Shown here in pieces: positions 2,051 through 26,151 of a stretch of 37,412 bases of DNA (position 1 is the first letter of the stretch; the number at the start of each line of letters is the position of its first letter). Where the stretch lies: assembly GCA_022766945.1 (NCBI GenBank), contig JALEOU010000102.1:1-37412 (forward strand), written 5' to 3'. Position numbers and translations under genes: made by a program. Source of the DNA: Fusicatenibacter sp. GTDB taxonomy: Bacteria > Bacillota > Clostridia > Lachnospirales > Lachnospiraceae. The notes under the pieces are model-generated. The model saw only the letters and a program-made list of their open reading frames with translations. It was not told where the DNA came from and searched no databases.

Positions 2051-3442
2051 ATGAATACATATTTCCATCCGCAGCCTGAACTGTTCGGACTGCGTGTTGT
2101 AAAATACATTCGTTGTTCCCATGATGGTCAGGTCCTTCATGGTGACACTCTTGAAGCGCAGGACTCTCTGCTCGACGAATTTATCAAAGTTAATCGCATG
2201 GTGTTGGTTGATACCTTCATCGACGAGGCCTTGACTGCCAGAAAGAAGTTTACTCGCCGGAAGGAATTCGTCCGTCTGCTCGATGGTGTCCGCGCTCATA
2301 ACTTCGACATGATTCTCTTCACAAAACTCGACCGCTGGTTCAGGAACATCGGAGACTATCACAAAATTCAGGAGATACTTGAAGCGAACGGAGTTCAGTG
2401 GAAGGCGATCACAGAGTCATACGATACCACCACCACGAACGGCCGTCTTCACATCAACATTCGTCTGTCCGTTGCACAGGACGAGTGCGACCGGGACAGT
2501 GACCGAATCAAAGATGTGTTCGCGTATAAACTGAAGAATAAGACATACCTCTCCGGCAGCCTGCCTCGTGGTCTGAAGCTGGACGATGAAAAGCACGTTG
2601 TTATCGACCCAGAATGGAAACAGTTTGCTCTGGATATGTTTGACCACTTTGAGCAGACGAATTCAAAGAGGGGAACTCTCCTTTACCTGAAAGAAAAATA
2701 TGGAATCTATTTGTGTTATGATACCATCGCCCGGAATCTTCGTAACCCTCTGTATAAAGGTATGTACCGCGATGACCCAGATTTCTGTGAGCGGCTTATT
2801 TCCCCTGAACGCTTTGACCGTATTCAGGAATTAGGGAAGCGCAATGTCCGGCAGCGTTATACGAATCGTACATATATATTCACGGGCCTCCTGATCTGCT
2901 CCTCTTGCAACCACTACCTTGTCGGCCAAACTACACACCGCACTCTTGCCGATGGAACTGAAAAGCATTATCCATCATATAGATGCAATCAGAGATACCA
3001 GTCGCACAGCTGTGACCGCAATCGCAGTTATCGTGAGGATTATGTTGAAGAGTATCTTCTTCAGCATATCCGTCCTGCTCTGTCTGAATATGTCGCAGAG
3101 TATGAAGTTGTCGGAACAAATCCCTCTCGCAAGAATCCTGCTGCCGAAGCTGCGAAGATACGGAACAAAATGCAGAAACTGTATGAACTGTATATGGATG
3201 ACCTGATCGACCGCGATACATACAAGAGAGATTATTCATCTTTTCAGGAAAAATTGAAAGAACTTGATTCTATCACTGCCGCGCCTTCTCGCGATCTGTC
3301 TGATCTGAAGAATCTGCTCGAACAGGATTATGAAGAGATTTACAAGACATTCTCTCCGCAAGAGAAGAATGCGTTCTGGAAATCCTTCGTGCAGTCTATT
3401 ACTGTTCACGAGGACGGAGAAATGGATATTGTTTTTTTATGA
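2051..3442 (+). CDS. Large serine recombinase (integrase) of the element
   Basis: A 463-residue site-specific recombinase that would integrate and excise the element by double-strand exchange through a serine. The ATG at 2051 follows GAAGGTTGA; the longer in-frame extension is poor in coding character. Residues 15-160 are the catalytic domain, with the nucleophile Ser23 in YIRCS, followed by KFTRRKEFVRLLDGV and FTKLDRWFRN (the conserved arginines). Next come the recombinase domain, a zinc ribbon (CSSC near residue 300, paired with two later cysteines) and a C-terminal coiled coil (KIRNKMQKLYELYMDD). The gene stop lies at the element's edge beside the attachment junction, the normal place for such an integrase. 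Confidence 0.93.
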   Translation: MNTYFHPQPELFGLRVVKYIRCSHDGQVLHGDTLEAQDSLLDEFIKVNRMVLVDTFIDEALTARKKFTRRKEFVRLLDGVRAHNFDMILFTKLDRWFRNIGDYHKIQEILEANGVQWKAITESYDTTTTNGRLHINIRLSVAQDECDRDSDRIKDVFAYKLKNKTYLSGSLPRGLKLDDEKHVVIDPEWKQFALDMFDHFEQTNSKRGTLLYLKEKYGIYLCYDTIARNLRNPLYKGMYRDDPDFCERLISPERFDRIQELGKRNVRQRYTNRTYIFTGLLICSSCNHYLVGQTTHRTLADGTEKHYPSYRCNQRYQSHSCDRNRSYREDYVEEYLLQHIRPALSEYVAEYEVVGTNPSRKNPAAEAAKIRNKMQKLYELYMDDLIDRDTYKRDYSSFQEKLKELDSITAAPSRDLSDLKNLLEQDYEEIYKTFSPQEKNAFWKSFVQSITVHEDGEMDIVFL

Positions 3443-3982
3443 TCTCGTTTTTACTAACTTTGCATTGCCTGTTGGCTCATCCGTAAAAAGCACTTTTGGC
3501 TGGTGTGCAATCGCTCTGGCAATGGCAACACGCTGCTGTTCCCCGCCGGAAAGCTCCTGAGGCAGATGATCTGCCCTCTGGGAAAGGCCGACGAGCCTGA
3601 GACATTCCATCGCCCGTTTGGTACGGTCTCCCTGGTATTTTACCATCCGAAGAGCAAAATCCACATTTTCCAGTGCATTCATCATGGGAATCAGCGCAAC
3701 GGACTGAAACACAAAACCAATTTCATAACGCCGGAGCGCGGTTCGGCTCTTTTCGTCCAGCTTGACAATGTCCCTGTCTCCGAACAGGACACTGCCCTCG
3801 GTAGGCAGATCCAGTGCACCCAGAATATTTATCAACGTGGTTTTGCCTGAGCCGGACCGGCCCCGCAGAATGGTCAGTTTTCCCCGGGGGATCTCGATAT
3901 TGATATTCTTCAGAGCCCAAAAATCTCCGCTTTTGGTCTGAAAACAGCGGCTCACATTTACCGCGGTCATAATGCTATCCAT
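3437..3982 (-). pseudogene. MacB/LolD-type ABC transporter ATPase, truncated by the element
   Basis: A 181-residue remainder of an ATPase that would normally have about 225-235 residues. Present are Walker A (GRSGSGKT), the Q-loop (FQSVAL), the signature LSGGEQQRVAIARA and Walker B (VLFTDEPT). Lost are the D-loop and H-loop, so ATP hydrolysis should fail; the last eight residues come from element DNA. The ATG at 3982 follows AAAGGAG and overlaps the stop of the upstream GH31 gene by eight bases (ATGGATAG), so translation is coupled to it. The class matches macrolide- or lipoprotein-type exporters rather than sugar importers. The permease and adaptors at 20092-26151 have no ATPase of their own and are the likely partners. 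The missing 3' end should lie beyond the left end of the element. Confidence 0.88.
3455..3475 (-). other. Attachment-site junction (element end / ABC ATPase gene)
   Basis: On the minus strand the ATPase gene reads normally through the Walker B sequence FTDEPTGN and then changes to AKLVKTRS and a stop, where the family would have LD and the D-loop. The change falls at about 3463-3464, directly after GGCAAT. This places one hybrid att site here. The exact crossover dinucleotide cannot be fixed without the other end or an empty site. Confidence 0.7.
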
Positions 3983-6900
3983 CAATTTCTCCTTTGAAGC
4001 CTACGATGTCATATGCGGTAGATGGATTGATCTTCATGATCACCCTGCCGTCTTCCTTTTCCAGATAACCTTCCTGGAAATACAGCGCTTCTTTTGACGG
4101 TACCCGGGGAAGTACTCTGCCGTTGACCGTCCATCCGCCAGACAGATTTCTATCGCCACTGATCAGGAAATAAGGTCCGACGGTTCCTCCAAAAATCCGA
4201 ATACGGCAACTCTCTTCTCCCCTCTCCAGACTGCATTGGATCCTGGCGCCGGAACGTTCAAAAATAGTCTCACAGGAGTCCTTATCCGACAGTGTTATCA
4301 AGAGCGCACCAGTCCTTGATCTGGTCATGCTTTCCCCGAACGCCAGATTTTCATTCAGATGAAGGGAAACAAAGCTGCCTTCTCTGACATAGACCGGGAT
4401 CCGATCAATCGGCACGTTTACGGCAATCTGTGAAGGTCCGGAAATGACTTCGCCGGAATTCCACAGACTGGTCCAATTTCCTGCAGGGAAATACACCGAC
4501 CGCTCTTCCGTTTCATCGGAAACAGGGGCAACCAGAAGATCCGGGCCAAAGAGATATTCGTCCCATACCGCTGCTGCGTCTTTGTTTTCGGGATAAATCA
4601 TCATCAGCGGACGCATAACCGGGATTCCGGTATTGTGTGCCTCCACTGCTGCACTCACAAGATACGGCTGCAGATTTTCCCTGAGCCATGCATAAAAACG
4701 GTAGAGCCGCACTGTAAAATCATCGTATTCCCAGGGTTCTCTCGGCTCTGTTCCGTGATACCTCATAATCGGACAGAAGGCTGCATATTCCGTCCAGCGG
4801 ATGTAGGTTTCCTGATCCGGGAAACCGTCATAACCGCCGGCATCCACACCCCAGAACGGCAATCCCGAAGCAGCAGCGGAAAGTCCTCCGGCAATCGCAT
4901 ATTTCAGACCAAGAAAGCTGGTCAGCTGATCTCCGCCGAACTGGCACGTAAAATGCTGAGAACCGGGTGCCGCACCTCTTGTGTACAGAACATGGTCATC
5001 GCCATACTTTTTCTCAAACAGTTTTCTGTAATTTTCAGCATACTGGTAGGCGTAGGCATTGTGCATTTCATCCCCGCGCCTTCCGTCATAAAACACCGCT
5101 TCATCCGGAACGATATCGCCAAAATCCACCATGCTGCCGCGGATTCCCGCATCCAGACGATCCTTCCACTGAACCTTCAGCAGCTCTTCTGCACGCGGAT
5201 GTGTAAAATCAATGTATACAGGCAACTTCTGATCCGGATCCTTCTCATTTACCGTCACCGGAAGCTGTTCTTTTTCGCAGTCCGGCAGCAGCTTTTTCGC
5301 TTGCTCCGGCGGCATATTCGGAAACTGCCAGGAAAATACTTTGAAACCATGTGCTGCACCATAAGAAACCACTTTATACAGTTCTTCTTTTTTATATTCC
5401 CCGTGGAAATCCGCGCCCGCGCCTTCGGCATAAAAGCCGGAATGAGGAATATCCAGTTCATTGAATTTCTTCATTACTGCCATCTGTTCGGCAACAATAT
5501 CCTGCATAGGTCCGCGTTTCCATCTTCCTCCGCCTCCGCCGGCCCAGGGCTCAAAAACCCATTCCGGCGGAAGAATCGGAAAACCGGTCAGTTCCGCATA
5601 AGCCGTCATGGCCTCTGTGGGGCATCCGGAAAAGAGATACACATCAAAAACCGGGCCAAGTGCTTCCACCGAGATCCGGTTCGACATCGTATTTCCTGCA
5701 TCGATCCGCAGCCGGTATGAAGAATTCACAAAGAAGCTGTAGCCGTCACTTGTATGAACCAGCGGAATGTTTTTATACGACTGATTTCCGATTGAGGCAA
5801 GGCAGCCCTCGCATGCATCCCGCTGCCAGAGGGCAACGATTTTCCCGTATTGATTTACGCTGTCAAATCGCTCCCCAAAACCATAGACAGCACGGTTTTC
5901 TGTGACAGCGAATCGGATCCGAGAGCCCGAGAAACCGTCTCTGTCAGAAACAAAGGAAAGCTCCCCGAGGTTTGCCGCCATTTTCCCATCAAGCACAAGG
6001 TCCAGCGTGTCCTGCCGGATAACCATTTTGTGCGTTCCGCTATCTATCATGAATCCCCCCTCACAGGGCTGCAATGAGAACTTTTGTATCTCTCCGTTAA
6101 AGAATCCCTTTTTGCCGCAGACAAGCCGAAATCCAAAGGAAACAGGATAGATCAGCAGGTCCTCTCTCCTTCCATTCATCTCCAGGCGCACTGTCACACA
6201 GTCTTCACTTTGGAAGATCTCTGTGATCTTCGTGATTTTGGACCACTTTTCGGCATCCTGATTGCCAAAGCTGTGATCCGCGTACCACCAGCTGCTGCAG
6301 GTCCGGAGAAATGCTATGTATTTGTCCAGCTCGCCAGCTGCCTCCTCAAACCGTTTTTCTCTCAGCCGCTCATTGACCAGACGTTTTTCCACCCAGGGAT
6401 CCACAGGTTCCCAGGGGTTTGCGATCTCCTGATTAAAGAAGAAATCAAAGCCCTCCAGTGTCAGGCCATCCTGCCATCGCTGTACAAGTGTGATTCTTTC
6501 CTCCAGTTTTTCCGGCGTGGTGGGTTCTTTGCTTTTCTGAAGAGAAAAGATGGCCTCCGCCTCTTCCCGGGACAGATTTGCAAGCACACCCGGTCTCTGC
6601 CAGTGACATACACCGGATGGCAATGTAAATACCACTGAATTTTCGATGACCGTCTTTTCTTTCTCTCCGAAGGATACTTCGATAAAGGTTTCCGGATCAT
6701 ATTCGAACCGGTCCGAGTAATTGACATTCAGATCCAACGGTGTAGGGCAGAGAATTTCGCTGGACTGATGCTTCTTCCGGTAAACCTGAAGATCAAAGAA
6801 TCCATCGTCCTCTGGCCTGCCGCCGAAAAGGGTCCATGGTATTTCAAACAGCGCATACCATCCATCCGGTGTATTTTGGACAGTCACGGTATAGTCTTCT

Positions 6901-7364
6901 TCCGAAATCAGTTGTTTTTCTCCCTGATCCTGCGGGTCTTTTCCCCCTCCCAGATAGGCTCCTTCCCCGCTGATGTAAGTCATTCCTTTTTCAACAAAGG
7001 CGCTCTTTTTCCCTGCTCTGTCCGCATAAAAAACAGCAAAGTCCCTTCTTGAAAAGTCTTTTCCGGAAAGCAGAAGCTCCGCCCGGTCTTTTCTCCTGGT
7101 ACGGAGTTCCGTGATCGTATTTTTCTGCATCACTCTGTGCGTACTTTTCTCCTCCCGGCATTCAAAGAGTACAAACAGTTTTTCTGCAGAATGCAGGAAT
7201 CTGCAGACCGTCGGTGTGACGGGAGCAGGGCTGCCGCCTGATCGGAAAAACGTATCAATCACAGCCGCATTTTTCCATTCCTCCGGACGGATCTCGTGAC
7301 CAGCTGCCGAATCCGTCCCGGGACCAAGTACCAGTGATGATACACCAAAAGTCAGTTTGCTCAT
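3975..7364 (-). CDS. Glycoside hydrolase family 31 alpha-glucosidase/transglycosylase (first copy)
   Basis: A 1129-residue enzyme acting on alpha-glucosidic bonds by a retaining mechanism. The ATG at 7364 follows GGAG. Residues 1-230 look like a CBM9/DOMON-type sugar-binding beta-sandwich (DRAELLLSG, FEIPWTLFGG, LQVYRKKHQSSE), followed by a helical linker and then the GH31 beta-sandwich and barrel (VYGFGERFD, EPWAGGGGGRW). The nucleophile is Asp747 in MVDFGD and the acid/base Asp812 in GGDQ; GVDAGG and RYHGTEPREPW are further family motifs. There is no signal peptide, so it should act in the cytoplasm. Its length exceeds plain alpha-glucosidases and is nearer to GH31 isomaltosyl- or glucosyltransferases of the cycloalternan pathway; hydrolase or transferase cannot be decided here. 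It is paralogous to 12252-15629. Confidence 0.93.
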   Translation of the reverse strand: MSKLTFGVSSLVLGPGTDSAAGHEIRPEEWKNAAVIDTFFRSGGSPAPVTPTVCRFLHSAEKLFVLFECREEKSTHRVMQKNTITELRTRRKDRAELLLSGKDFSRRDFAVFYADRAGKKSAFVEKGMTYISGEGAYLGGGKDPQDQGEKQLISEEDYTVTVQNTPDGWYALFEIPWTLFGGRPEDDGFFDLQVYRKKHQSSEILCPTPLDLNVNYSDRFEYDPETFIEVSFGEKEKTVIENSVVFTLPSGVCHWQRPGVLANLSREEAEAIFSLQKSKEPTTPEKLEERITLVQRWQDGLTLEGFDFFFNQEIANPWEPVDPWVEKRLVNERLREKRFEEAAGELDKYIAFLRTCSSWWYADHSFGNQDAEKWSKITKITEIFQSEDCVTVRLEMNGRREDLLIYPVSFGFRLVCGKKGFFNGEIQKFSLQPCEGGFMIDSGTHKMVIRQDTLDLVLDGKMAANLGELSFVSDRDGFSGSRIRFAVTENRAVYGFGERFDSVNQYGKIVALWQRDACEGCLASIGNQSYKNIPLVHTSDGYSFFVNSSYRLRIDAGNTMSNRISVEALGPVFDVYLFSGCPTEAMTAYAELTGFPILPPEWVFEPWAGGGGGRWKRGPMQDIVAEQMAVMKKFNELDIPHSGFYAEGAGADFHGEYKKEELYKVVSYGAAHGFKVFSWQFPNMPPEQAKKLLPDCEKEQLPVTVNEKDPDQKLPVYIDFTHPRAEELLKVQWKDRLDAGIRGSMVDFGDIVPDEAVFYDGRRGDEMHNAYAYQYAENYRKLFEKKYGDDHVLYTRGAAPGSQHFTCQFGGDQLTSFLGLKYAIAGGLSAAASGLPFWGVDAGGYDGFPDQETYIRWTEYAAFCPIMRYHGTEPREPWEYDDFTVRLYRFYAWLRENLQPYLVSAAVEAHNTGIPVMRPLMMIYPENKDAAAVWDEYLFGPDLLVAPVSDETEERSVYFPAGNWTSLWNSGEVISGPSQIAVNVPIDRIPVYVREGSFVSLHLNENLAFGESMTRSRTGALLITLSDKDSCETIFERSGARIQCSLERGEESCRIRIFGGTVGPYFLISGDRNLSGGWTVNGRVLPRVPSKEALYFQEGYLEKEDGRVIMKINPSTAYDIVGFKGEIDG

Positions 7365-7388: not shown

Positions 7389-9098
7389 TCAGCCGTAAAT
7401 ATTCTCGGTTATCGTCTCGCTTTTCTTACAGATAATCCGGAAACCGCCGGCGGGAAGTGTAACAGGACCACAGAGCACCTCTGTGATTTCCGCATCGGTA
7501 TTTCCGTCATTTACAAATACATAGATGATTTCTTCTTCGTTTTCCCGGACAAATCCGTACACCCTTTCCCTGGCCGTTAGAGTCCGAAAGGAACCGTTTC
7601 TCACAGCCGGGTGCTTTTTCCGGAGCAGAATCAGGGTCCGATAAAACTGAAAAAGTTCCTGTTCCCCGGGCCTGTTGTCCCACATCATGCATTTTCTGCA
7701 GTCCGGATCATTTTTTCCGTCCATTCCCGCCTCATCCCCGTAATAGATGGAAGGAGAGCCCGGGAAAAGTATCTGTGTGACGACTGCAAGGCGGAAAGAA
7801 CTCTGTCGATGGGAACAGCTGTCAATAAAACGTTCGGTATCATGGGTATCCAGCGCGTTGAACATGGCCGCATTAATCTCTGCGGGATGTCGCGAAAGCG
7901 CCATTTCCAGCCGGACGCCCAATTCTTTTGCATCAATGCATCTCTCTGCGAAAAAGTCCAGCATCGCCTGCCGGAAGGAGTAGTTCATAATACTGTCCAT
8001 ACCGCAGCCGTTCAGCAGACGCTTTCCTTCCGCCCAGGTTTCTCCGATCAGAACAAGATCCGGATTCAGCCTTTTTAACCGGTCCCTGATTTTTATGACA
8101 AAATTCTCGTCCAGCTCGTCCGCAACATCATACCGGTATCCGTCAACGCCCGCTTCCTTCACCCAGAATTCCAGTACCTTCAGCAGATATTCCTGCACCT
8201 TCCCGTTCCCTGTATCTAATTTCGGCATGCCCTCAAAACCAAAGAAACACTCATAACATTCCGGTTTCTCCGTTACCGGAAAAGCAGTGATGTGATACCA
8301 TTCAAGATATTCGGAGCTTTCCTGGTTTTTCAGAATATCGGCAAAGGCAAAAAAGCCGGTTCCCGTGTGGTTAAACACCGCATCAAGAATCACCCGTATC
8401 TTTCTTTTATGGGCTTCTTTTACCAGCGCGCGAAGATCCTCGTTTGTTCCGAACTGCGGATCAACCGTATAATAATCCGTTGTATCATATTTGTGATTGG
8501 ACGGCGCGCGAAATACGGGATTCAGATAGATGCATTCCACACCCAGAGACGCAAGGTAATCCAGGGATTTTCGGATTCCGGCCAGGTCTCCGCCCATAAA
8601 GTTCGAAGGAGTCGGTGTGCTGCCCCATGGCATACAATCTTTCGGATCATTGGATGGATCTCCGTTTCGGAAACGTTCCGGAAAAATCTGGTAATACACG
8701 GTTCCCTGACTCCATACCGGAGGCAGTTGACTGACCGTCACCTCGTTCGCATAGGCATATTCAAAATAACACTCCAGAGGATACGATTTCACCGGGCCCC
8801 AGGCATGATACCAGATGGTCTCCCCGTCATTTCCGGTCAGACGGAAACAGTACTGAACGTACCTGGCAGGCTTTCGAAACGCAACGGTTGCCGTATAGAC
8901 AGAAGATACCCCGGTCTCATACTGAAGCGTCAGTTCCTGTTCCTTCCGTGTTTCTTCCATGTGGTTCTTATGAAAATAAATCACATGACAGGACCGGATA
9001 TCGCCGCTTGCCGCCCGGAACGAGAAGGTCAGATGATACCTGTCCGGCGCGTAAACGTCCGGATAGGTACCACCATGATAAAGTGCAGCCTGATTCAT
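7389..9098 (-). CDS. GH13 alpha-glycosidase (neopullulanase/cyclomaltodextrinase type)
   Basis: A 569-residue cytoplasmic enzyme. The ATG at 9098 is preferred because GGAG lies four to eight bases upstream, inside the end of the previous gene (stop at 9100), so the two are translationally coupled. Residues 1-120 are an N-terminal beta-sandwich like CBM34, and the barrel follows with YYQIFPERF and DAVFNHTG. The catalytic triad is visible: nucleophile Asp324 in GYRYDVADE, acid/base Glu353 in GETW, and Asp420 in THDTERF. These features fit subfamily 20-like neopullulanases and cyclomaltodextrinases, which open alpha-1,4 and sometimes cyclic or branched oligosaccharides. In this operon it may deal with alpha-1,4 parts or cyclic products; the true substrate is open. 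Confidence 0.9.
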   Translation of the reverse strand: MNQAALYHGGTYPDVYAPDRYHLTFSFRAASGDIRSCHVIYFHKNHMEETRKEQELTLQYETGVSSVYTATVAFRKPARYVQYCFRLTGNDGETIWYHAWGPVKSYPLECYFEYAYANEVTVSQLPPVWSQGTVYYQIFPERFRNGDPSNDPKDCMPWGSTPTPSNFMGGDLAGIRKSLDYLASLGVECIYLNPVFRAPSNHKYDTTDYYTVDPQFGTNEDLRALVKEAHKRKIRVILDAVFNHTGTGFFAFADILKNQESSEYLEWYHITAFPVTEKPECYECFFGFEGMPKLDTGNGKVQEYLLKVLEFWVKEAGVDGYRYDVADELDENFVIKIRDRLKRLNPDLVLIGETWAEGKRLLNGCGMDSIMNYSFRQAMLDFFAERCIDAKELGVRLEMALSRHPAEINAAMFNALDTHDTERFIDSCSHRQSSFRLAVVTQILFPGSPSIYYGDEAGMDGKNDPDCRKCMMWDNRPGEQELFQFYRTLILLRKKHPAVRNGSFRTLTARERVYGFVRENEEEIIYVFVNDGNTDAEITEVLCGPVTLPAGGFRIICKKSETITENIYG

Positions 9099-9099
9099 A

Positions 9100-10434
9100 T
9101 TATCTCCTTTCCGAAATCCGCAGGATCCTGCATCCATGAGGCGGAAGAACCGCATCAAACGCTGTCATCTCTCCCAGATCCTGATGGAGCCAGAGATCTC
9201 TTACCTCAGATAATCCGCAGGATAATACGTTCTGAAAATCAACGGATACTTTCTTTTCCTGGCTGTCCCTGTTAAAGAGAGACAAAATGATCTCTCCGGA
9301 AGGTTCTTTTCCGATCCAGACCGTGCTGCCGGGATCCGCAGGATCTGTCGATAACGGGAAAGATACCACCTCTTTTTGATTCAGTTCCAGCAGTTCTTTA
9401 TTCTGATAGATCCAGGCCCTCTCTCCAATGGTATCATACTGATCCGCGATATCCAGCGGCGCACCCGCAATGATATCAAGAGAAACTGCCGAGATACACT
9501 CTTCCTCTGTTGCAAAGGTATTCAGGCGGAGCATATCCGCATCCATAATCATATGGTTTTCTGCAAATCGCCTGGACCAGTAGATCAATCCGTCAAAAGC
9601 GGTGGTGCACTGAGACCAGTAATCAAAATGCTGACCTCTGTTTTTGTCACTGTAGGTCTCCCATCCGCCCGTACCTGCATCTTCGTTGATTCTTGCCATC
9701 TGTCCCATTCCGAACTCATTTTTCCCGTTCTCCTTCAGATGCGGCATCACAAGACTGATCATGATCTTGTCACCGGCGGCTTCTTTGATCCATTCCAGCG
9801 TTTTTCTGTAATTTGCTTCCCCGTGATTTCTTCCGATTCTTCTGCCTTTGTCTATGCCGTCCTCATACCAGGAGAGAAAATCCACGCGAAGAAAATCCAC
9901 GTGACAGTCAATAAAATACTGCACATATCCCTGTACATATTCCTTTGCCCCGGGACGGTCTGCGTCAATCCAGTACAAAGCCTTCTCACCGTTCGGGTAG
10001 GAGAAACGATCACCGTCTATCCCACAGCGGTCACCGTCGTACTCATAGGACAAATCCGTGATCTCCCGCACCGGAATGTCCGTCCCTTTCACCGTGATCT
10101 TTTCATCCTGAACCGCAGCGGGACTGATCCAGGTCGGATTGTAATAGACCCCCAGTGCCATTCCTCTTTCATTCAAATACTCTGCCCAGTATTTCCAGTC
10201 GTGTTTCCAGGAATCATGATGCCGTGTCAGATATCCGTTCTCGTTAATGCAGAAAGAATCCTCAATCCAGCCATCGGTACATACCATTTCATATCCATAA
10301 GGAGCAAATTCCTTTGCCATCCAGTCTATGTTTGCTTTAAAACGATCCTCCGGCATGTAAGTGTTGCGCGTGAACTGATGCTCATAAGTGCACCAGTAAA
10401 GAGGTCCCGTTTTCTTGTCCAGTTTCAGTCTCAT
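9100..10434 (-). CDS. GH27-like glycosidase (isomalto-dextranase or alpha-galactosidase clan)
   Basis: A 444-residue cytoplasmic protein. The ATG at 10434 follows GGAGGA; an 11-residue longer start lacks a site. The barrel shows the clan D pattern: CTDGWIEDS and YYNPTWISP early, the probable nucleophile Asp185 in FLRVDFLSW, and the probable acid/base Asp252 in RINEDAG, followed by WETYSD. A C-terminal beta domain ends in LPPHGCRILRI, as is usual for GH27 and GH36. GH27 contains both alpha-galactosidases and isomalto-dextranases (release of isomaltose from dextran). Because it lies between GH66 and GH13 in an alpha-glucan operon, I favour an alpha-1,6-glucan activity, but the sequence alone does not exclude melibiase-like activity. 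Confidence 0.8.
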   Translation of the reverse strand: MRLKLDKKTGPLYWCTYEHQFTRNTYMPEDRFKANIDWMAKEFAPYGYEMVCTDGWIEDSFCINENGYLTRHHDSWKHDWKYWAEYLNERGMALGVYYNPTWISPAAVQDEKITVKGTDIPVREITDLSYEYDGDRCGIDGDRFSYPNGEKALYWIDADRPGAKEYVQGYVQYFIDCHVDFLRVDFLSWYEDGIDKGRRIGRNHGEANYRKTLEWIKEAAGDKIMISLVMPHLKENGKNEFGMGQMARINEDAGTGGWETYSDKNRGQHFDYWSQCTTAFDGLIYWSRRFAENHMIMDADMLRLNTFATEEECISAVSLDIIAGAPLDIADQYDTIGERAWIYQNKELLELNQKEVVSFPLSTDPADPGSTVWIGKEPSGEIILSLFNRDSQEKKVSVDFQNVLSCGLSEVRDLWLHQDLGEMTAFDAVLPPHGCRILRISERR

Positions 10435-10459
10435 GAATTTATCCTCCTGTTCTGCATCG

Positions 10460-16509: not shown

Positions 16510-16522
16510 TTCACTTTCCTCC

Positions 16523-17458: not shown

Positions 17459-17473
17459 AACGGATGCCTTTCC

Positions 17474-17497
17474 GGACGAATCCTCTTTCATTCGTCC
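17474..17497 (-). other. Hairpin touching the permease ribosome site
   Basis: GGACGAAT and ATTCGTCC are perfect eight-base arms around an eight-base loop. The stem ends one base before the GGAAAGG ribosome site (17473-17467) of the 16523-17458 permease. It could tune translation of the permease or mark the 5' end of a processed transcript. Seen in the sequence; the role is inferred. Confidence 0.5.
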
Positions 17498-17503
17498 TGT
17501 AAC

Positions 17504-17554
17504 AAAAAAGGGGAAACAATCTTGCAATTACACCAGCCCAAGATAGTTTCCCCC
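17504..17554 (-). terminator. Intrinsic terminator between binding protein and permease genes
   Basis: On the minus strand GGGGAAAC (17553-17546) pairs with GTTTCCCC (17517-17510), extended by a further six pairs (ATCTTG/CAAGAT), and is followed by TTTTTT (17509-17504). This is a textbook stem plus U-run inside an operon. It should stop part of the transcripts after the binding-protein gene, so that the importer makes many more binding proteins than permeases. Confidence 0.85.
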
Positions 17555-19009: not shown

Positions 19010-19124
19010 ATCTCTTTCCTCCTTCTAGAAAGTTCTTTGTATCTTTATATTTATACGTTTTCCTTCTTTTTCTCAAGATGCTTTCTTGTCCAAAATATAC
19101 AATCTTTTTACCTTATTTCCCGAT

Positions 19125-19165
19125 ATTATAGACTTTTTGACGTATTTAGAATAAAATAATATCCT
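19125..19165. promoter_or_regulatory. Divergent promoter region of sugar operon and AraC operon
   Basis: For the sugar operon (minus) TATAAT lies at 19130-19125 with only a poor -35 (near TTATTC), as expected for an activator-dependent promoter. For the AraC operon (plus) TTGACG at 19137-19142 and TATCCT at 19160-19165 are 17 bases apart. The two promoters overlap back to back, so one regulator bound here could affect both. I find no clear catabolite-control (cre) site in the 19010-19250 gap. Confidence 0.55.
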
Positions 19166-19187
19166 GTAATATAATGTTATGCTGAAT

Positions 19188-19211
19188 TTATCATCCGTTT
19201 TTTAATGATAA
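19188..19211 (+). other. Inverted repeat in the AraC leader
   Basis: TTATCAT and ATGATAA flank a 10-base spacer, about 40 bases before the araC-type start. It could be a regulator-binding palindrome or a weak leader hairpin. A/T-rich inverted repeats of this length can arise by chance, so support is modest. Confidence 0.3.
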
Positions 19212-19250
19212 TTCACAGTTTCTGCACAAAAGTCCGGAGGGATGAATTTC

Positions 19251-20117
19251 ATGGAAGTTATCGAATATGAGCCTATTAATCTCTATGACGGCCGTTTTTG
19301 CAAAGTCTTTCATTCCGATATTATCGAGATGGAAAAACCCAAAAATACCAATGTGGTTCCCCATTTTCACTGGCACAACAGTTTTGAATTCAACTGCTCG
19401 ATCAACGGAAGTCTCAAATGCGACGTCGATTCCTCTGTCTGCTATATACATGATTATGATTTCCTTTTTGTAAACCCGAACGTCATTCACAAATCCCAGG
19501 AGATTACAAAACCGTTTCTCGGTTTCGCCGTACTGGTTCCGGCTACCATCATTCATCAGTTTTTTAACAGAAATGAGAAAAATCCTTCCATTGTCATCGA
19601 TCCGGCAGTGGTTGATGAAAACAGAAGTAAGGTCATGGATCTTCTCATGAATATCTGCAGCTATTCCAGGTCGGACGATCCGGCCGCACTTTTAGGCATG
19701 AATGCATGTGTTCTTCAGATTTTTTATCTTCTTCTTTCCGGGAATTCCACCCAGTCTGAACAGAACAAAGATCCCGGATCGGAAGATTCCATGCCGTTTA
19801 CCGAATATATCTCGATTCATTACAAAGAGCACATTACGCTGGATAGTGTGGCGGAACATTTCGGGTTCAGTCCTGCCTATTTTTCCAGAATTTTCACGAA
19901 GAAAACCGGACGCAATTTCAGTGTCTATCTTTCTTCCCTAAGATTAAACCATGCCACCCATCTCCTGGAAAATACCGCATCTTCAATTGCAGATATCGCC
20001 GAGGAAAGCGGTTTTTCCAGTTCCCGTGCCTTTGTGGATATGTTTAAAAAGGTCAACGAAATCACACCAAAACAATACAGGGACAAATGCAATGAAAACC
20101 AGAAAACCGAAGATTAG
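19251..20117 (+). CDS. AraC-family regulator of the glycan/exporter locus
   Basis: A 288-residue transcription factor. The ATG at 19251 is chosen because GGAGGG lies at nine bases; the ATG at 19242 would touch that site. Residues 1-130 form a cupin-like sensor domain (VVPHFHWHNSFEFNCSINGS, DYDFLFVNPNVIHKS), which in relatives binds a sugar or other small molecule. Residues 190-285 hold the two helix-turn-helix units (ITLDSVAEHFGFSPAYFSRI, then TASSIADIAEESGFSSSRAF). It diverges from the sugar operon, the usual place for its activator, but it is also the first gene of the exporter operon: the next gene starts inside its coding end. That makes it the probable common switch for both arms. Confidence 0.92.
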   Translation: MEVIEYEPINLYDGRFCKVFHSDIIEMEKPKNTNVVPHFHWHNSFEFNCSINGSLKCDVDSSVCYIHDYDFLFVNPNVIHKSQEITKPFLGFAVLVPATIIHQFFNRNEKNPSIVIDPAVVDENRSKVMDLLMNICSYSRSDDPAALLGMNACVLQIFYLLLSGNSTQSEQNKDPGSEDSMPFTEYISIHYKEHITLDSVAEHFGFSPAYFSRIFTKKTGRNFSVYLSSLRLNHATHLLENTASSIADIAEESGFSSSRAFVDMFKKVNEITPKQYRDKCNENQKTED

Positions 20118-21171
20118 ACAACGGATTATCCTAATAACCAGCATTCTTTTTTCCATCGTTCTTCAGGCGTGCGCATTGTCAGAGACACCGGAAATGAAAT
20201 GTCCTCCGGTTCCTGTTTATGAGGAGCCGGCGTACGAAACTGCTTTGTGTCAGCGAATGACCATCCGGGATACGAAAACCATTCGCTTCTCTTACCATGC
20301 CACCAGAGAGGAAACTCTTTTCTATCCGGTGGAAGGCATCCATTATTCTGCTTTTTTTGTGGTTCCCGGAACTGCTGTGCTAAAAGGCGACCTCCTCTGC
20401 GAACTCGATCTGGAAAATTATCCGGAACTGTTATCGGAAGCAGAGGCGACCCTATTGGATCTGCAGCAGGAACAGGTGCTTCTCGAAGAAAACCTGGCGT
20501 TGTCTCTGAAACGGGAATCCCTTACAAACACCGAAACAAGTAAACGGGAAAGGCAGAATACTGTGAACGAAATCAACCTTCGCTATACACAAAAGCGTAC
20601 TGAGCTGGAGGACCGGATCTATATTCTGCAAAAACGCATGGAAGAATATCAGACGGTCATTCGCGAACGACAATTATACGCTCCTTTCGACGGAACAGTC
20701 ACGTACGTATACTCCCCCGGTTCCTCTGATCTGTCGCAGAAAGGCCAGCGGATTGTGACTGTGACCGATGATTCCCAAATGCTCTTTACCGCAGAAACAG
20801 AATACAGCAGCTATTTTCTTCCGGATACCGAATACCTGCTTTCGATCAATGGAGAGGACCGGATCACCGTACCCGTCTTTCCGGAGGAGGAAAGCAGTCC
20901 CAATACGGTGTTTCTGGCACTCAAAGTCCCGGATTACGACCTGGAAGACGGTGTTTCCGGAACCCTTGAGCTCTCTCTCGAAGAAAAAGACCAGGTGCTT
21001 GGCATCCCAAAAAAGGCACTTTCTTCCATCAACGGCAAACCGATTGTCTATCTTCTCGGAGAAGACGGCTTTCGGACCTATCAGGAAGTCAATACAGGCA
21101 TAGAAGGCCCTTATTATACCGAAATCATATCCGGTCTGGAGGAAGGGGATGAAATCCTCCTCCCCGACTGA
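20092..21171 (+). CDS. HlyD-like adaptor lipoprotein 1 of the exporter
   Basis: A 359-residue periplasmic-adaptor-type protein (membrane fusion family), which in Gram-positives sits outside the membrane and works with a MacB/FtsX-type permease. The ATG at 20092 follows AGGGA and overlaps the end of the AraC gene by 26 bases. The signal ends in LQAC, making Cys27 the lipid anchor. Residues 60-110 and 210-240 form the two halves of the lipoyl/barrel-sandwich domain (VVPGTAVLKGDLLCELD; LYAPFDGTVTYV). They are separated by a coiled-coil hairpin (residues 120-200, rich in Leu, Glu, Gln and Arg), and a beta-barrel follows (VLGIPKKALSS). It differs from the two adaptors that follow. Confidence 0.85.
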   Translation: MKTRKPKIRQRIILITSILFSIVLQACALSETPEMKCPPVPVYEEPAYETALCQRMTIRDTKTIRFSYHATREETLFYPVEGIHYSAFFVVPGTAVLKGDLLCELDLENYPELLSEAEATLLDLQQEQVLLEENLALSLKRESLTNTETSKRERQNTVNEINLRYTQKRTELEDRIYILQKRMEEYQTVIRERQLYAPFDGTVTYVYSPGSSDLSQKGQRIVTVTDDSQMLFTAETEYSSYFLPDTEYLLSINGEDRITVPVFPEEESSPNTVFLALKVPDYDLEDGVSGTLELSLEEKDQVLGIPKKALSSINGKPIVYLLGEDGFRTYQEVNTGIEGPYYTEIISGLEEGDEILLPD

Positions 21172-21183: not shown

Positions 21184-22278
21184 ATGAGAAAATGTTTCCT
21201 GCCCATCCTTCTGTGTATTCTTCTTACCATTCCGGGATGCGCATCCCACATCGCAGATGATGCTCCGGAGCTGATTGAACCCTCCGGTACTGCAGCAGCT
21301 TCCTCCCCCGTGATTCGGGGGGAGTTCTGTACCACAGAAGTCTATGAAGGATTTGTAACGCCCGATGTAACCGAACTGTCCTTTGATCGGGACGGAACTA
21401 TCTGGCAGATTTCTGTCGGTTCCGGATGTTATGTAAACGAAGGGGATTTACTTGTGAAACTGAACACGAAAGAAGAAGAAGAAAAAGCTGTGGAACTGGA
21501 AGCGGAACTGGAACTTCTTCGGAGTGACTACGAATACACAAAAGCAGTGCACGAAAACCGCAAAGAATATCTGCGCACTGAATTGAAACAGACAGCCGAA
21601 GCAAACGGCACGAACAGTGCGGAATATCAGCTTAAGCAAATTGATCTGGAGGAATCCGACCTGGCATATGCAAAATCAGAAAAAGATCTGGAAAGCAGCA
21701 TTTCCCAAAAAGAACAGACTCTCGCAGCGATAGAACAACAGATCGCTCTGGGAGCCATCACGGCGGAACACGCGGGCTATTTTTACCTGTCCTCCGATAT
21801 TACCGAAGACGCCTATGTCCAGAAAGGTAAAACTATCTGCTGCATTACGAAAGATGATTCTCTCATGTTCACTTGCTCCTATCTTGATGAAGCAGATCTG
21901 AAAAATTGTGCCCTTTCTGCCCTGATCGGCGGTGTATCTTACGAAATCTCGTATGTTCCTCTGTCCGAGGAAGAACGCTCCGCCCTCTATTTCACCGACG
22001 AAAGAGACCGTTCACTGTTCACTTTTCTGCCGGATGCAGATCTGTCTTCCCTGTCTGCGGGAAATACCGGATTTCTCATTGTAAACGGCCATATGCTCGA
22101 CGATGCACTTCAGGTACCGATCAATGCTCTGTTTGCTGATTCTTCCGGAAAATACGTCTATGTCATGGAAGAAGGCACAAAAAAAAGACAGGACGTCACC
22201 GTCGGCGCATCCAACGGTATCATGACTGTCATTGAAGAAGGACTGAATGAGGAGGATATCGTATATGTACAGCAGTAA
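21184..22278 (+). CDS. HlyD-like adaptor lipoprotein 2 of the exporter
   Basis: A 364-residue lipoprotein. The ATG at 21184 follows AAAGGAGTCC, and the signal ends in IPGC with Cys19 as anchor. The lipoyl halves are near VGSGCYVNEGDLLVKLN (about residue 80) and ITAEHAGYFYLSSD (about residue 195), joined by a charged coiled-coil hairpin (EEEKAVELEAELELL to KDLESSISQKEQTL). The C-terminal barrel ends VPINALFADSSGKYVYV, the classic adaptor C-terminal pattern. It lies 12 bases after adaptor 1, and adaptor 3 starts inside its end, so all are translated together. Confidence 0.85.
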   Translation: MRKCFLPILLCILLTIPGCASHIADDAPELIEPSGTAAASSPVIRGEFCTTEVYEGFVTPDVTELSFDRDGTIWQISVGSGCYVNEGDLLVKLNTKEEEEKAVELEAELELLRSDYEYTKAVHENRKEYLRTELKQTAEANGTNSAEYQLKQIDLEESDLAYAKSEKDLESSISQKEQTLAAIEQQIALGAITAEHAGYFYLSSDITEDAYVQKGKTICCITKDDSLMFTCSYLDEADLKNCALSALIGGVSYEISYVPLSEEERSALYFTDERDRSLFTFLPDADLSSLSAGNTGFLIVNGHMLDDALQVPINALFADSSGKYVYVMEEGTKKRQDVTVGASNGIMTVIEEGLNEEDIVYVQQ

Positions 22279-23341
22279 ACATTTCTTCCGTTATTTTTCT
22301 TCTCTTTTTCTGGCTCTTTCTGTGACGGCAGTGCTTTTGATTTCCTGCGTTCCGGTTGTCTTTGCTGCAGATACAACTTATAAAACCTGCACCGTGACGC
22401 GCACTAGCATCGCCATTCAGAAAGAGAGCAAAGCCTCTCTTCTCTATCCCTCGCAGACCGTCGTCCGTTACGAAGGCGCGGAAGCAACTTATGTTTCTTC
22501 TCCCGTAAAACACGGTCAGACCGTCCAGGCCGGAGAGGTTCTGATGACAGTAACGCCAAAAACGGATCCCATCGACTGTGAGGAAAAAGAACTGGAGCTT
22601 GCCCGGCTAAAAAAGAGCCTCGAAGATGAAATTCAAATAAGAAACAACCACCTTGCGGTACTTTCCGGACGGAAAAATACCATTTCCGATTCCTTTGAAT
22701 ACCGGAAACTGCAGCTGGATATTCAGAAATGTGAACTGGAGCTTGCCCATTTTATCTCCGTTCAGAACAGAGAAATTGCCCAAAAAGAAACAGAACTGGA
22801 AAAAATCTATGCAGCGATCAATGCCGTCGAAATCAAAGCTCCCGTTTCCGGTATCGTGACTGACCTGATCATTCCCGGGGATAGCGACACGATTACCAGC
22901 GGCATGATCATCTGCCGGATTGAAGATCCTTCTTTTTGTATGGCAAAATCCGCTTCCTGTCTCTTTCCGTTCGGTTCTCATGTTCAGATCTGCGGAGACC
23001 GAATGGGAGAAGAGGTGAAAATAGCCGCCGTCGTTACCGGTTCCTCCAGTATCGAATCGATTGACACGGATAAATTCTCTTCCTGCCTGCTTCCGCAAAA
23101 CGAAGTGATCCATCTTGAGACCATCAGTAATTTGTCCGTTATCGGAACAACAGTAGAACTGGAACAGGTTCTCTTGATTCCGACAAAAGCAGTTCACACC
23201 GACAATGCCGGAAGTTTTGTCTATGTACTGACAGAGGAAGAAAGAAGCAAAAAACAATATATAACCGCTTATTGTATTGATTCGGACTGGACCTGGTCTG
23301 TGTGCGGTCTCGATGAAGGACAGACCTTGATTCTGCGCTAG
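22265..23341 (+). CDS. HlyD-like adaptor 3 with a cleavable signal peptide
   Basis: A 358-residue exported adaptor. The ATG at 22265 follows GAGGAGG at nine bases and overlaps adaptor 2 by 14 bases. Residues 1-34 are a signal peptide with a likely cut after VFA; unlike adaptors 1 and 2 it lacks a lipobox. Lipoyl halves lie near VKHGQTVQAGEVLM and IKAPVSGIVTDLIIPGD, with a coiled-coil hairpin of about 90 residues between them. The C-terminal part includes VLLIPTKAVHTDNAGSFVYV. It lacks a membrane anchor, so it is probably held by its partners. Three different adaptors for one permease is unusual. Confidence 0.83.
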   Translation: MYSSKHFFRYFSSLFLALSVTAVLLISCVPVVFAADTTYKTCTVTRTSIAIQKESKASLLYPSQTVVRYEGAEATYVSSPVKHGQTVQAGEVLMTVTPKTDPIDCEEKELELARLKKSLEDEIQIRNNHLAVLSGRKNTISDSFEYRKLQLDIQKCELELAHFISVQNREIAQKETELEKIYAAINAVEIKAPVSGIVTDLIIPGDSDTITSGMIICRIEDPSFCMAKSASCLFPFGSHVQICGDRMGEEVKIAAVVTGSSSIESIDTDKFSSCLLPQNEVIHLETISNLSVIGTTVELEQVLLIPTKAVHTDNAGSFVYVLTEEERSKKQYITAYCIDSDWTWSVCGLDEGQTLILR

Positions 23342-23352: not shown

Positions 23353-26151
23353 ATGTTAATGACAATTATCCGTAAAATGTGGAATAAAAAGATGATGATG
23401 GCGTCTCTTCTCCTCGGAGATCTTCTCTTCATCAGCATTGCGGCAGCAAATCCGATGTTTCTGCAGGCCTCTCTTCGAAGAACCCTGAATACCTCGATCG
23501 AAGCTCTCGCAGAGCAGCAGGGATGCTGGCCAATGACCTACTCTGTCACTCCCGCAAGCAGTTATAAACCGCAATTTCTCCGGCGCACCACAAATGAACT
23601 GCTTGCCTCGGCGGATGATTTTGATCTGCCTCTTCATACCCTGGTCACCATCTACTCTCTCAAGCCGGAAGAGACCGTATCAAATCTTGACAGGCAGGAT
23701 AGGGTATCGGCCCTTCAGGTCAGCACCATCACAGATATCGAAAATCACATTGAGATTCTCTCCGGCACCGGTATGAGCAAGGAGCCTGACGAGGATTCCG
23801 TCATTGATGCAGTTGTTTCGCGGAGAACCTTTCGCAAATGCGGTCTGATTTTGGGTGAAATTCTGACTTTTGAGAACACGGAACTGTCTCCCGGAGTACC
23901 GCTCAGAATCCGGATTACCGGTATCTTCCAAAACAATCTGGAAACCGATCCCTATTGGATCAATGCCCCGGACAGCTACACACAGAGTCTTTTTATTGAT
24001 GACTCTCTGTATTCTTCTCTGTATCTGTCCGACCAGTCGAATTGTAAATCCAAAGCAGCCTGGTATGCACTTTATGACTATTCCGACATTTCTCTGAACT
24101 CCATACCATCTGTACTTACGCAGATTGCCAGATATGACGAGCTCTTTTTGTCGGAATACGGAACAAGTCATTTCTGTTCTTTTGCCGGCATCTATGAAGA
24201 CTACCTGGTCACAAAAAGAAATACCGAAATCACCTTCCGTGTTCTTCAGGTTCCGTTTCTTCTGCTTTTGGTTTCCTTTATCCTCATGGTTTCCAGGCAG
24301 CTGATCCACATGGAAATGGCGGAAATTGCCGTATATAAAAGCCGTGGCCTTAGCAGAAAACCGATTATTACCATGTATCTTCTTCAGAGCCTGATCCTTG
24401 CGCTTGTGGCTGCCCTTTTTGCTGTTCCGCTGTCGATTTTGCTGGTAAAGCTTCTCGGTTCCGCCTCCGGTTTTCTCACATTTTCCGGAACGCATACGTT
24501 TCAGCCCCGGTTTTCGTTCGATAGTCTGCTTTACGCTGCAGTAGCTGTTCTTTTTTCCGTTTTCACCATGCTCTTACCCGTAATCAGCCAGTCGAAGACA
24601 ACGATTGTCCGTCACAGAGCAGACAAATACAGAAAAGGTACAGCTCCTCTCTGGCAGAAATACTTTCTGGATCTTGTGATTCTTTGTGTGGCCTTGTATG
24701 GACTTTTCAATTACTCTGCCCAGAAAGATGCTCTGCTTTCCAGAATTTTATCCGGCAAACCGTTGGATCCACTGCCCTTTTTATGTTCTTCCCTGTTTCT
24801 TCTGGGAGCAGGTCTTCTATCCCTGCGGCTGGGAACCTGCCTGATCCGTTTCATTTTCTGGCTTTTCAAAAAGAAATTGAATCCTGCACTCTATGCTTCC
24901 TTCTCTTATATCATAAAAACCAGAAGGCAGCAAAACTATTTTGTCATTTTTCTGTTCCTTACCGTTGCTCTTGGAATATTCAATTCCTCAGCCGCAAGAA
25001 CCATCAACAACAATGATGAACAGAACACCCGCTATCTGAACGGCACTGACCTTATTGTCCGTGAACGGTGGCAGAGCAACCGCGATTCAGAGGATGTACA
25101 GCTCAATGGAGGAAAGATCATCTATCAGGAACCGGATTTTTCCAGATATTCCGGCTTTGATGACGTGATCCATACCGCCAAAGTCTACCGTTCCGATTCC
25201 ATGAATGTCACGATATCCTCCAGCACACTGAAAAATGTAGAACTTATGGGAATCTGGACAAAAGATTTTGGCGAAACCGCACGTTTTGACACCTCTCTTC
25301 TTCCGGAACACTGGTACAACTATCTCAATCTGCTTGCAAAAGATCCAAATGGTCTTTTGCTGAGCACAGATTTTCAGACCGATTTTGGAGTAAAAAAGAA
25401 TGACAGTATCGTTGTAAAAAATGTTGACGGCAGTTATCTGCGCGGCACAGTACTCGATTTTGTAGATTATTGGCCGGGCTATGCTCCCTCCTGCTGTATA
25501 AGTCAATCTGACGGTACCATAAAAGGAGAAAACAATTATCTGATCATCGCCGGTTTATCTGCAGTTCAGGATTCTTTTGGCCTTCTTCCCTATGAAGTCT
25601 GGATCAAAACAAACGGAACGAATGAAGGAGTCTATCAGGGGATTACAGATCTGGGGATTCCGGTTGAGTCTGTCAATGACACCTCCAAGCTACTGCAGAA
25701 CAGAAAAAATGACGCTCTGATCAACAGCACAAACGGAGTCCTCACCCTTGGTTTTCTTATCAGTATCATCTTGTGTGCCGCCGGATTCCTGATCTACTGG
25801 ACCCTGTCAATCAAAGAGCGGGAGCTGCAGTTTGGCATTTTCCGTGCCATGGGGATGGCGATGAGCGAAATTGCTGAAATGCTGATCAATGAACAAATCT
25901 TTATCTCTCTGCTGCCGATCCTTTTCGGTGCTTTTTTCGGATGGCTTGCTGCAAAACTTTATATGCCATTGATTCAAATGGTCTACTCTTCCGCTGATTA
26001 TGTCATCCCCCTGAAGGTGATCTCATCCGCGGCGGATAACCTCAGACTCTCAGCCGTCATCCTGATTGTTCTTGGCGTCTGCATGACGATTCTGATCAGA
26101 ATGATTCAAAAGCTGAAAATCGCACAGGCCCTGAAGCTGGGAGAAGACTGA
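23353..26151 (+). CDS. FtsX/MacB-type ABC transporter permease
   Basis: A 932-residue membrane protein, start ATG at 23353 after GGAGGGTG. About ten membrane segments can be traced: one at the N-terminus (residues 17-35), then a large outer domain to about 290, segments near 295, 340, 390, 435, 470 and 530, a second outer domain, and three near 795, 845 and 890. The FtsX signatures are EIAVYKSRGLSRKPI and ELQFGIFRAMGMAMSEIAEM, both following a membrane segment, showing the usual internal duplication. Such permeases drive extracytoplasmic transport or lipoprotein and peptide export using a LolD/MacB-type ATPase. None is encoded beside it; the truncated one at 3437-3982 fits. It is the last gene of the AraC operon, and I see no strong terminator after it. 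Confidence 0.88.
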   Translation: MLMTIIRKMWNKKMMMASLLLGDLLFISIAAANPMFLQASLRRTLNTSIEALAEQQGCWPMTYSVTPASSYKPQFLRRTTNELLASADDFDLPLHTLVTIYSLKPEETVSNLDRQDRVSALQVSTITDIENHIEILSGTGMSKEPDEDSVIDAVVSRRTFRKCGLILGEILTFENTELSPGVPLRIRITGIFQNNLETDPYWINAPDSYTQSLFIDDSLYSSLYLSDQSNCKSKAAWYALYDYSDISLNSIPSVLTQIARYDELFLSEYGTSHFCSFAGIYEDYLVTKRNTEITFRVLQVPFLLLLVSFILMVSRQLIHMEMAEIAVYKSRGLSRKPIITMYLLQSLILALVAALFAVPLSILLVKLLGSASGFLTFSGTHTFQPRFSFDSLLYAAVAVLFSVFTMLLPVISQSKTTIVRHRADKYRKGTAPLWQKYFLDLVILCVALYGLFNYSAQKDALLSRILSGKPLDPLPFLCSSLFLLGAGLLSLRLGTCLIRFIFWLFKKKLNPALYASFSYIIKTRRQQNYFVIFLFLTVALGIFNSSAARTINNNDEQNTRYLNGTDLIVRERWQSNRDSEDVQLNGGKIIYQEPDFSRYSGFDDVIHTAKVYRSDSMNVTISSSTLKNVELMGIWTKDFGETARFDTSLLPEHWYNYLNLLAKDPNGLLLSTDFQTDFGVKKNDSIVVKNVDGSYLRGTVLDFVDYWPGYAPSCCISQSDGTIKGENNYLIIAGLSAVQDSFGLLPYEVWIKTNGTNEGVYQGITDLGIPVESVNDTSKLLQNRKNDALINSTNGVLTLGFLISIILCAAGFLIYWTLSIKERELQFGIFRAMGMAMSEIAEMLINEQIFISLLPILFGAFFGWLAAKLYMPLIQMVYSSADYVIPLKVISSAADNLRLSAVILIVLGVCMTILIRMIQKLKIAQALKLGED

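Follow-up and report, generated by a model that had tools for sequence, protein, structure and literature searches.

Organization of the locus

The window analysed here is the entire contig JALEOU010000102.1 (C68; 37,412 bases) of a 3.19-Mb, 123-contig genome of Fusicatenibacter sp. (G000), and it carries two divergent gene arms around a short control region, with part of a prophage at its left end. Leftward, the gene order is sugar-binding lipoprotein (SBP), two importer permeases, GH31, GH66, GH27-like, GH13 and GH31 glycoside hydrolases, and an ATP-binding cassette (ABC) ATPase, here called ATP1; rightward, an AraC-family regulator is followed by three open reading frames (ORFs) of about 360 residues and an FtsX permease of 932 residues. 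Genes were identified from ORFs and Pfam, with PDB, NCBIfam and phrog profile matches for single parts, and the content of both arms is as given in a preliminary description of this DNA, which read the two arms as one system that imports and digests a dextran-like glucan while exporting something or guarding the envelope. Our analysis instead points to an alpha-1,6-glucan operon standing next to a six-gene exporter that normally occurs without glucan genes, and whose ATP1 gene is cut here by the prophage. The features of the two arms are listed by position.

3471..3982, minus strand: 5' part of ATP1, a LolD/MacB-type ATPase gene cut in its Walker-B codons (3' part at C15:4562-4750)
3975..7364, minus strand: second GH31 (GH31b), cytoplasmic (Pfam, PDB matches, N-terminus)
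7389..9158, minus strand: GH13 with Alpha-amylase_N domain, cytoplasmic (Pfam)
9100..10467, minus strand: relative of GH27-type isomaltodextranase (5awo; Melibiase_C)
10460..12127, minus strand: relative of GH66 dextranases and cycloisomaltooligosaccharide glucanotransferases (CITases) (Pfam, E 1.9e-101; PDB; NCBIfam endo-dextranase below cut-off)
12252..15629, minus strand: first GH31, cytoplasmic (Pfam, PDB matches)
15670..16539, minus strand: sugar ABC importer permease permG (BPD_transp_1)
16523..17527, minus strand: sugar ABC importer permease permF (BPD_transp_1)
17645..19009, minus strand: SBP (SBP_bac_8; 9xf5, E 5e-110)
19010..19241, no strand: divergent control region, in which three species share conserved blocks (alignment of G000, G006 and G002)
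19242..20117, plus strand: AraC-family regulator (HTH_18, E 7e-22; AraC_binding)
20092..21171, plus strand: adaptor A, MacA-like lipoprotein (MacA profile; fold match 5nik_D)
21184..22278, plus strand: adaptor B, lipobox-like (TIGR01730, E 1.1e-22, below cut-off)
22247..23341, plus strand: adaptor C (TIGR01730, E 9e-11, below cut-off; HlyD_3, weak)
23353..26151, plus strand: fused double FtsX permease (two FtsX stretches; about 10 transmembrane (TM) stretches and two extracytoplasmic domains)

The closest solved structure to the GH27-like enzyme is the isomaltodextranase 5awo (residues 20-452 of 455, E 2.6e-115), and those closest to the GH66 protein are dextranases and CITases. Because of these two matches, the predicted use of alpha-1,6-glucan (dextran or isomaltooligosaccharide), also proposed in the preliminary description, is well supported. 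The locus has the corresponding make-up, namely GH66, an isomaltodextranase-type GH27, GH31s, GH13, a sugar importer and a putative single regulator, and the operon order is conserved in two further genomes of the genus, G002 and G006. Inspected by eye, the N-termini of all five hydrolases showed no signal peptide, in agreement with the cytoplasmic location first assigned to them. We found no description of such GH66/GH27 gut loci in the open-licence literature. Within the control region, one conserved block of about 27 bases is a candidate promoter or AraC site; promoter and terminator scans gave counts equal to or slightly above those of shuffled sequences.

A conserved six-gene exporter in part of the family

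The three adaptors, the permease, ATP1 and a second ATPase gene (ATP2), located on another contig of this genome, C15, constitute, as judged from their predicted products, a type VII (MacB/YbbAP-like) ABC machine of six genes, with a fused permease and two unlike ATPases. Hydrophobic stretches of the permease lie at residues 18-29, 297-313, 345-367, 391-410, 442-447 (weak), 477-497, 533-543, 796-814, 848-870 and 898-918, and hydropathy over 35 sequences indicates that stretches one and seven are each followed by a large extracytoplasmic part. This is the 10-TM, two-domain order of YbbP, as expected for the FtsX-type permease of a type VII system; profile matches are to LolF/LolC (N-terminal half) and PsdB, and the nearest named relative, at 75% identity, is in a Lachnospiraceae metagenome-assembled genome.

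The presence of three adaptors, as initially described, is supported by matches of A, B and C to TIGR01730, all below cut-off; for B and C the assignment to the MacA type comes through these matches only, while adaptor A is MacA-like by both profile and fold. Its profile matches MacA at E 2e-31, with a higher score for the resistance-nodulation-division (RND) adaptor 6vej (7.8e-35), and its predicted fold (pLDDT 88, pTM 0.55) has MacA at rank 1 (E 1.4e-19). The start of adaptor A was set at 20092, inside the AraC gene (26-nucleotide overlap), rather than at the ORF-list start of 19951. Its cysteine is invariant across 29 rows, and a loose lipobox motif was found in 68/73 sequences of adaptor A, 68/73 of adaptor B and 45/73 of adaptor C.

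ATP2 is a LolD/MacB-type ATPase with an AbrB-like tail, which matches PF04014 weakly (E 8.6e-5, below cut-off) and whose motif is present in 90 of 91 ATP2 proteins. Its best PDB match is Rv1281c (8j5q, E 4.3e-62), and it matches LolD (7mdy) at E 3.2e-58; the cut-off of the LolD model TIGR02211 (307.75 bits) was reached neither by ATP2 (230) nor by ATP1 of G006 (196.7). Counted over loci that were not deduplicated, relatives carry the Walker A motif in 97/97 ATP1 and 91/91 ATP2 proteins, the H-loop in 95/97 and 91/91, and a Walker B DEPT in at least 88/97 (30 DEPTG, most others DEPTA) and 91/91. The catalytic motifs of a type VII ABC ATPase are therefore present in the relatives, and it is the window's own ATP1 that is broken. 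No NCBIfam match above cut-off was obtained for any of the six components (ATP1 taken from G006), as assessed for the two ATPases on the best 25 of 186 and the best 25 of 192 matches.

Across 397 genomes of the same family, the permease (E <= 1e-30) was detected in 47 and full-length ATP2 with its tail in 46, all within these 47; nine further genomes had shorter ATP2 matches that end before the tail. The sole permease genome without full-length ATP2 is G422, whose completeness is 75%; both of its contigs with the permease break off 528 bases beyond that gene, a distance within which ATP1 begins. With each genome represented by a single copy, ATP2 was located 674-1001 bp downstream of the permease, on the same strand, in 43 of the 46 genomes. 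Of the three that remain, one is G000 itself, and in the two others the permease contig continues for just 56 and 449 bases.

A contig scan returned 494 permease relatives, and the best 80 of these were combined with 40 family regions and the loci of G043 and G008 into a set of 122 loci (117 distinct). Permease, ATP1 and ATP2 follow in a row in 107 of the 109 distinct loci with at least 1.7 kb downstream, with the ATP2 tail in all 107; the eight loci with less sequence either show ATP1 (six) or end within 56 bases (two). Only L173, the locus of G006 in this genus, and L103, where G105 has an additional permease, depart from this order. Permeases that seemed to be without ATPases in L104, L109 and L135 proved to be gene-calling artefacts, tblastn finding both ATPases there. 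Three adaptor modules are present in 90 of the 97 loci with enough upstream sequence (as separate genes in 71, with a B-C fusion in 16 and with a different fusion in 3); seven loci do not show this pattern.

Because the genes stand in a row in 107/109 loci, and 46/47 permease genomes carry ATP2, the exporter is, on genomic grounds, a standing six-gene machine, normally found without glucan genes. The same two counts bear out the earlier suggestion that the ATPase belongs with the FtsX permease. Of the findings that the preliminary description named as refuting its one-system reading, the second was obtained: the exporter has its own ATPases, and at almost all loci examined it stands apart from any glucan operon. 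We also considered, and rejected, the possibility that the ATPase serves the sugar importer, because it is of the LolD/MacB type, its orthologue stands behind the FtsX permease in 107/109 loci, and G002 has the importer but no orthologue of this ATPase.

Several neighbours of the exporter were recorded in passing. Downstream of ATP2 in L052 (G043), a frame of more than 4700 residues with an apparent signal sequence runs to the end of the stretch (5817-19997), and a Cas12a gene lies directly 3' of the exporter operon in L241 (13343-17365). DUF6034 proteins flank the exporter in L130 (304-1692 and 9429-10901) and stand upstream of it in L132 (3561-5036).

Interruption of ATP1 by a prophage

The left end of the window holds the following prophage features.

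1..3472, no strand: left part of the prophage, inside which the contig begins (integrase phrog_95, E 1.5e-95; att arms)
445-936: phage repressor-like helix-turn-helix protein of the prophage
1994..3442, plus strand: large serine integrase (Pfam Resolvase, Zn_ribbon_recom; phrog_95)
3471..3472, no strand: attL, the prophage/ATPase junction, probable core AC (partner attR at C15:4562-4563)

The ATG of ATP1 at 3982 overlaps the GH31b stop (3975) by 8 nucleotides, as had been noted from the sequence. The ORF (3437-3985) then reads as far as TDEPTG and continues through nine residues of prophage DNA to a stop, leaving a protein without D-loop and H-loop; the orthologue in G006, 232 residues long and 89.5% identical, runs through both. 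The remainder of the gene is found on C15 and is followed by ATP2, whose start overlaps the end of ATP1, and by a URO-D-like gene. Thus the MacB/LolD assignment in the preliminary description holds, its treatment of the ATPase as a complete gene does not, the prophage having been missed, and a pairing with a different permease just downstream can be discounted from the gene order on C15.

Serine integrases use a two-base core. Of the 17 bases in each phage arm (window 3447-3463 and C15:4538-4554), 15 match as an inverted repeat, and the AC pair common to both junctions is separated from each arm by exactly 7 bases, the spacing that an attP core should have. An alternative GG core was rejected, since GG and CC are off centre and symmetry gives AC. 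A two-base core is likewise reported for the serine integrase of Tn4451 in the excerpt available of PMC5704250. Other features of a serine-integrase prophage are present as well, including an integrase gene adjoining the att site, genes of phage type (on the C15 side, those for an endolysin and a reverse transcriptase) and a host gene split between attL and attR. Because the half genes and the att arms match, C68 and C15 would flank one prophage, within which both contigs appear to begin, each at base 1. With ATP1 lacking its D-loop and H-loop and ATP2 separated from the glucan operon, this lysogen probably has no active exporter.

The integrase has tblastn matches in 344 phage records, every one below 60% identity, and we found no description of this integration site in the open-licence literature. 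Repeated integration at the ATPase site was tried as an idea and rejected: viral contigs yielded five related integrases, three of them 62% identical, and no ATPase half stands downstream in the four inspected. The reverse transcriptase (C15, L066, 182-1402; RVT_1, phrog_1423) could belong to a diversity-generating retroelement.

Split gene order within the genus

In this genus, the ATPase pair ends the glucan operon and the permease arm follows AraC, G006 having ATP1 and then ATP2 after GH31b as in G000. Among the 7 genomes of the genus that were searched, ATP2 orthologues above the ABC ATPase background were found only in G000 and G006, as was the permease; the five others are without either orthologue. 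One of these, G002, retains the glucan operon and an AraC gene that reads in two frames (C50, L062+L063, 30996-31854 of the joined stretch), through either a frameshift or a sequencing error. A comparison of G000 with G006 over 13 genes (two in part; permG excluded) indicated purifying selection on all of them, with ratios of nonsynonymous to synonymous substitution (dN/dS) of 0.04 for the ATP1 5' part, 0.06 for ATP2, 0.12 for the permease and 0.13-0.21 for the adaptors (B in part), values that are rough because dS is high. In G006, the start of a cyclopropane-fatty-acid-synthase-like gene (L061, 5600-5877; named by eye) stands in the place of adaptor B.

Association with sugar-use genes

GH66 relatives (E <= 1e-40) were found in 7 of the 397 family genomes and co-occur with the exporter in 3, against 0.8 expected (P 0.04); only G000 among these three has both on one contig. 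The exporter is without a GH66 relative in 44 of its 47 genomes, and it is not a constant part of the glucan locus, occurring in 3/7 GH66 genomes and having no orthologue in G002.

Sugar importers lie near the exporter in 8 of 36 loci, compared with 1.42 expected from genome-wide counts, in a test that took 36 of 40 loci (L108, L110, L113 and L129 excluded) and ignored kinship in its P. In view of this excess, the exporter may have a functional link to sugar use. In a quickly built tree of permeases with 116 rows (rows below 850 residues or with duplicate permeases excluded), the importer-near label, which includes chance neighbours, changes at least 11 times on well-supported branches, so that this state appears to have arisen many times, partly by chance.

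Neighbour genes were identified for a selected set of proteins, and at several loci the exporter proved to be embedded among sugar-use genes. An importer permease stands upstream of the exporter and GH120 or GH43 downstream in L117 and L121; GH94, an SBP and permeases lie downstream in L122. GH9 upstream is combined with a 986-residue SBP and permeases downstream in L125, and GH20 upstream with a 1011-residue SBP and permeases downstream in L116. L178 has the layout of the window (importer, divergent AraC-type regulator, exporter) with its ATPases in place. Many exporter loci are found beside unrelated genes, including dnaX, FTHFS, purA, EF-G-type, Cas12a and FKBP genes. Both large SBPs (L116 3227-6262, L125 4607-7567) have about 570-610 N-terminal residues that are mostly without assignment. 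Elsewhere in the window, an AAA_21/AbiEii-type ATPase gene lies at 35005-36360.

Interpretation and alternative explanations

Taken together, these results make it likely that the locus combines a glucan module, a six-gene type VII ABC machine and a prophage break. The first module would be an ordinary cytoplasmic alpha-1,6-glucan operon with an AraC regulator. In the second, ATP1 and ATP2 would bind the two unlike permease halves as a heterodimer and drive mechanotransmission through the permease, which would move a lipoprotein, or else a substrate of amphiphilic or peptide nature, off the membrane's outer face. With its motor genes carried by the glucan operon, the machine may be made when alpha-glucan is present, and in this lysogen it would be off unless the prophage excises. 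Its role could be envelope protection or peptide efflux, which we offer as a tentative first guess within this explanation. Since the exporter normally occurs without glucan genes and the G002 operon occurs without the exporter, the one-system idea fails as a general rule and would describe at most a lineage-specific recruitment.

Several observations weigh against this explanation. Co-regulation of the two arms is suggested by gene overlap only, and no contig spans the putative prophage. In G006 the right arm may not be contiguous, as its contig (C108 end) leaves the exporter right after adaptor A and the N-terminus of adaptor B was not found in that assembly. Although G105 also has a complete exporter, its second permease arm (L103, on C53) is without ATPases and sits on a long tree branch. 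Finally, ATP2 is 87% identical to that of L175 while the permeases are 44% identical; when two permeases share 40-45% identity, the mean identity of their ATP2 proteins is 67% (sd 4). The permease of this genus also has a long stem in the tree (0.61). From this, either the permease arm changed faster, or the ATPases and the permease arm have different histories; we are undecided between the two.

Of the alternatives, the one that survives best, though we consider it doubtful, is that the ATPase pair merely landed behind the hydrolase operon, with the exporter performing an unrelated envelope task such as antimicrobial peptide or lipid efflux. The wide variation in exporter neighbours is consistent with such an accident, as is the protection against peptides described, in the portion available of PMC5985334, for Gram-positive MacB systems. 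An accident fits less well with an ATP1-ATP2 pair behind GH31b that is common to two species and has dN/dS well below 1, or with importers near the exporter above expectation and the repeated label changes, even with chance neighbours included among these.

Two further readings, equally unlikely in our estimation, tie the exporter more closely to glycans. One sees the machine as a surface device that gut Firmicutes repeatedly recruited to glycan-use loci, where it and the importer would act jointly at the cell face, on glycans or on lipoproteins that bind them; its motors would be sugar-controlled in this genus, and a prophage targeting the conserved ATPase codons could turn the device off. 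The other is a dedicated glucan system, in which the exporter is integral to alpha-glucan use, for example by exporting or placing a glucan-related product, and the arms act only together. The overlaps of AraC with adaptor A and of GH31b with ATP1 are in line with such a system, as are the presence of the exporter parts together in the two species of the genus that carry them, the importer excess and the excess of genomes with both GH66 and exporter. It is nevertheless difficult to reconcile with the exporter-free glucan operon of G002, with the 44 exporter genomes devoid of a GH66 relative and with the unrelated neighbours found elsewhere.

That the prophage acts as a switch (active lysogeny), excision rebuilding ATP1 under some condition, seems less probable still. 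The insertion by a serine integrase inside a coding sequence, with both halves otherwise open in frame, and the symmetry of the att arms about the core would suit a switch, but of the two genus genomes with the ATPase pair only G000 has the prophage there, no other lysogen was seen at the site, though no search aimed at one was made, and the letters of the DNA alone give no sign of excision. A false join of host and phage contigs during assembly is highly improbable, even with both contigs apparently beginning inside the prophage, given a cut at matching codons on two contigs, an integrase gene at the junction, and phage arms that form an inverted repeat centred on the shared AC pair.

Under the favoured explanation of two modules and a prophage break, the analysis defines a conserved yet uncurated ABC machine, whose permease is present in 47 of the 397 sampled family genomes, and which is unusual in combining a fused permease with three adaptors and a pair of dissimilar ATPases, of which one ends in an AbrB-like tail. 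The displacement of the motor genes is an experiment of nature on the question of whether machines of type VII are coupled to sugar use, and the inserted prophage provides a naturally occurring loss-of-function case. The locus also calls for caution in annotation, as the permease partner of an ATPase gene adjoining a sugar operon may be encoded at another site.

Comparison with known systems

No exporter of this make-up was found described in the open-licence literature, and the closest parallels are partial. YbbP is presented in the accessible part of PMC12646458 as an FtsX-type permease of pseudosymmetric build, in whose series of 10 TM helices a large extracytoplasmic domain follows TM1 and another follows TM7 (positions TM1/2 and TM7/8), and YbbAP as extracting hydrophobic molecules from the membrane. 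The exporter described here resembles YbbAP-TesA of E. coli, as outlined there, in having a single fused 10-TM permease and separate LolD-like ATPases; it differs in having two different ATPase genes (107/109 loci), where YbbAP has two copies of one, and three MacA-like adaptors, with no TesA-like hydrolase among the six genes.

MacB combines ATPase and permease in one chain, forms a homodimer and works with one adaptor type. Like MacAB, YknXYZ and SpMacAB, the exporter has a MacA-type adaptor together with a permease and ATPase of the MacB superfamily. Unlike in MacAB, its ATPases are separate genes (in the window and in 107 loci), its permease is a fused dimer and it has three adaptors. The likeness to LolCDE lies in ATP2, which is nearest to LolD models among the NCBIfam matches listed (below cut-off), and in the LolC/LolF-like N-terminal half of the permease; two ATPases, one fused permease and adaptors set the exporter apart, and the Lachnospiraceae host has no outer membrane. 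For the Gram-positive MacAB-like systems YknXYZ and SpMacAB, the excerpted text of PMC5985334 reports protection against peptides.

The glucan module can be set against the dextran loci of Bacteroidota, which use an outer-membrane SusCD route. Such loci are linked to dextran use, with GH66 named, in the section available of PMC10316084, whereas the window encodes cytoplasmic enzymes and an ABC sugar importer. As for the break in ATP1, serine-integrase integrative and conjugative elements and integrative and mobilizable elements are reported, in the available parts of PMC5704250 and PMC7563491, to insert inside the conserved genes rumA and hsdM. The insertion seen here is likewise an integrase-mediated one inside a protein gene; unlike those elements, it is a prophage, and the gene that it splits, at the codons for Walker B, encodes an ABC ATPase.

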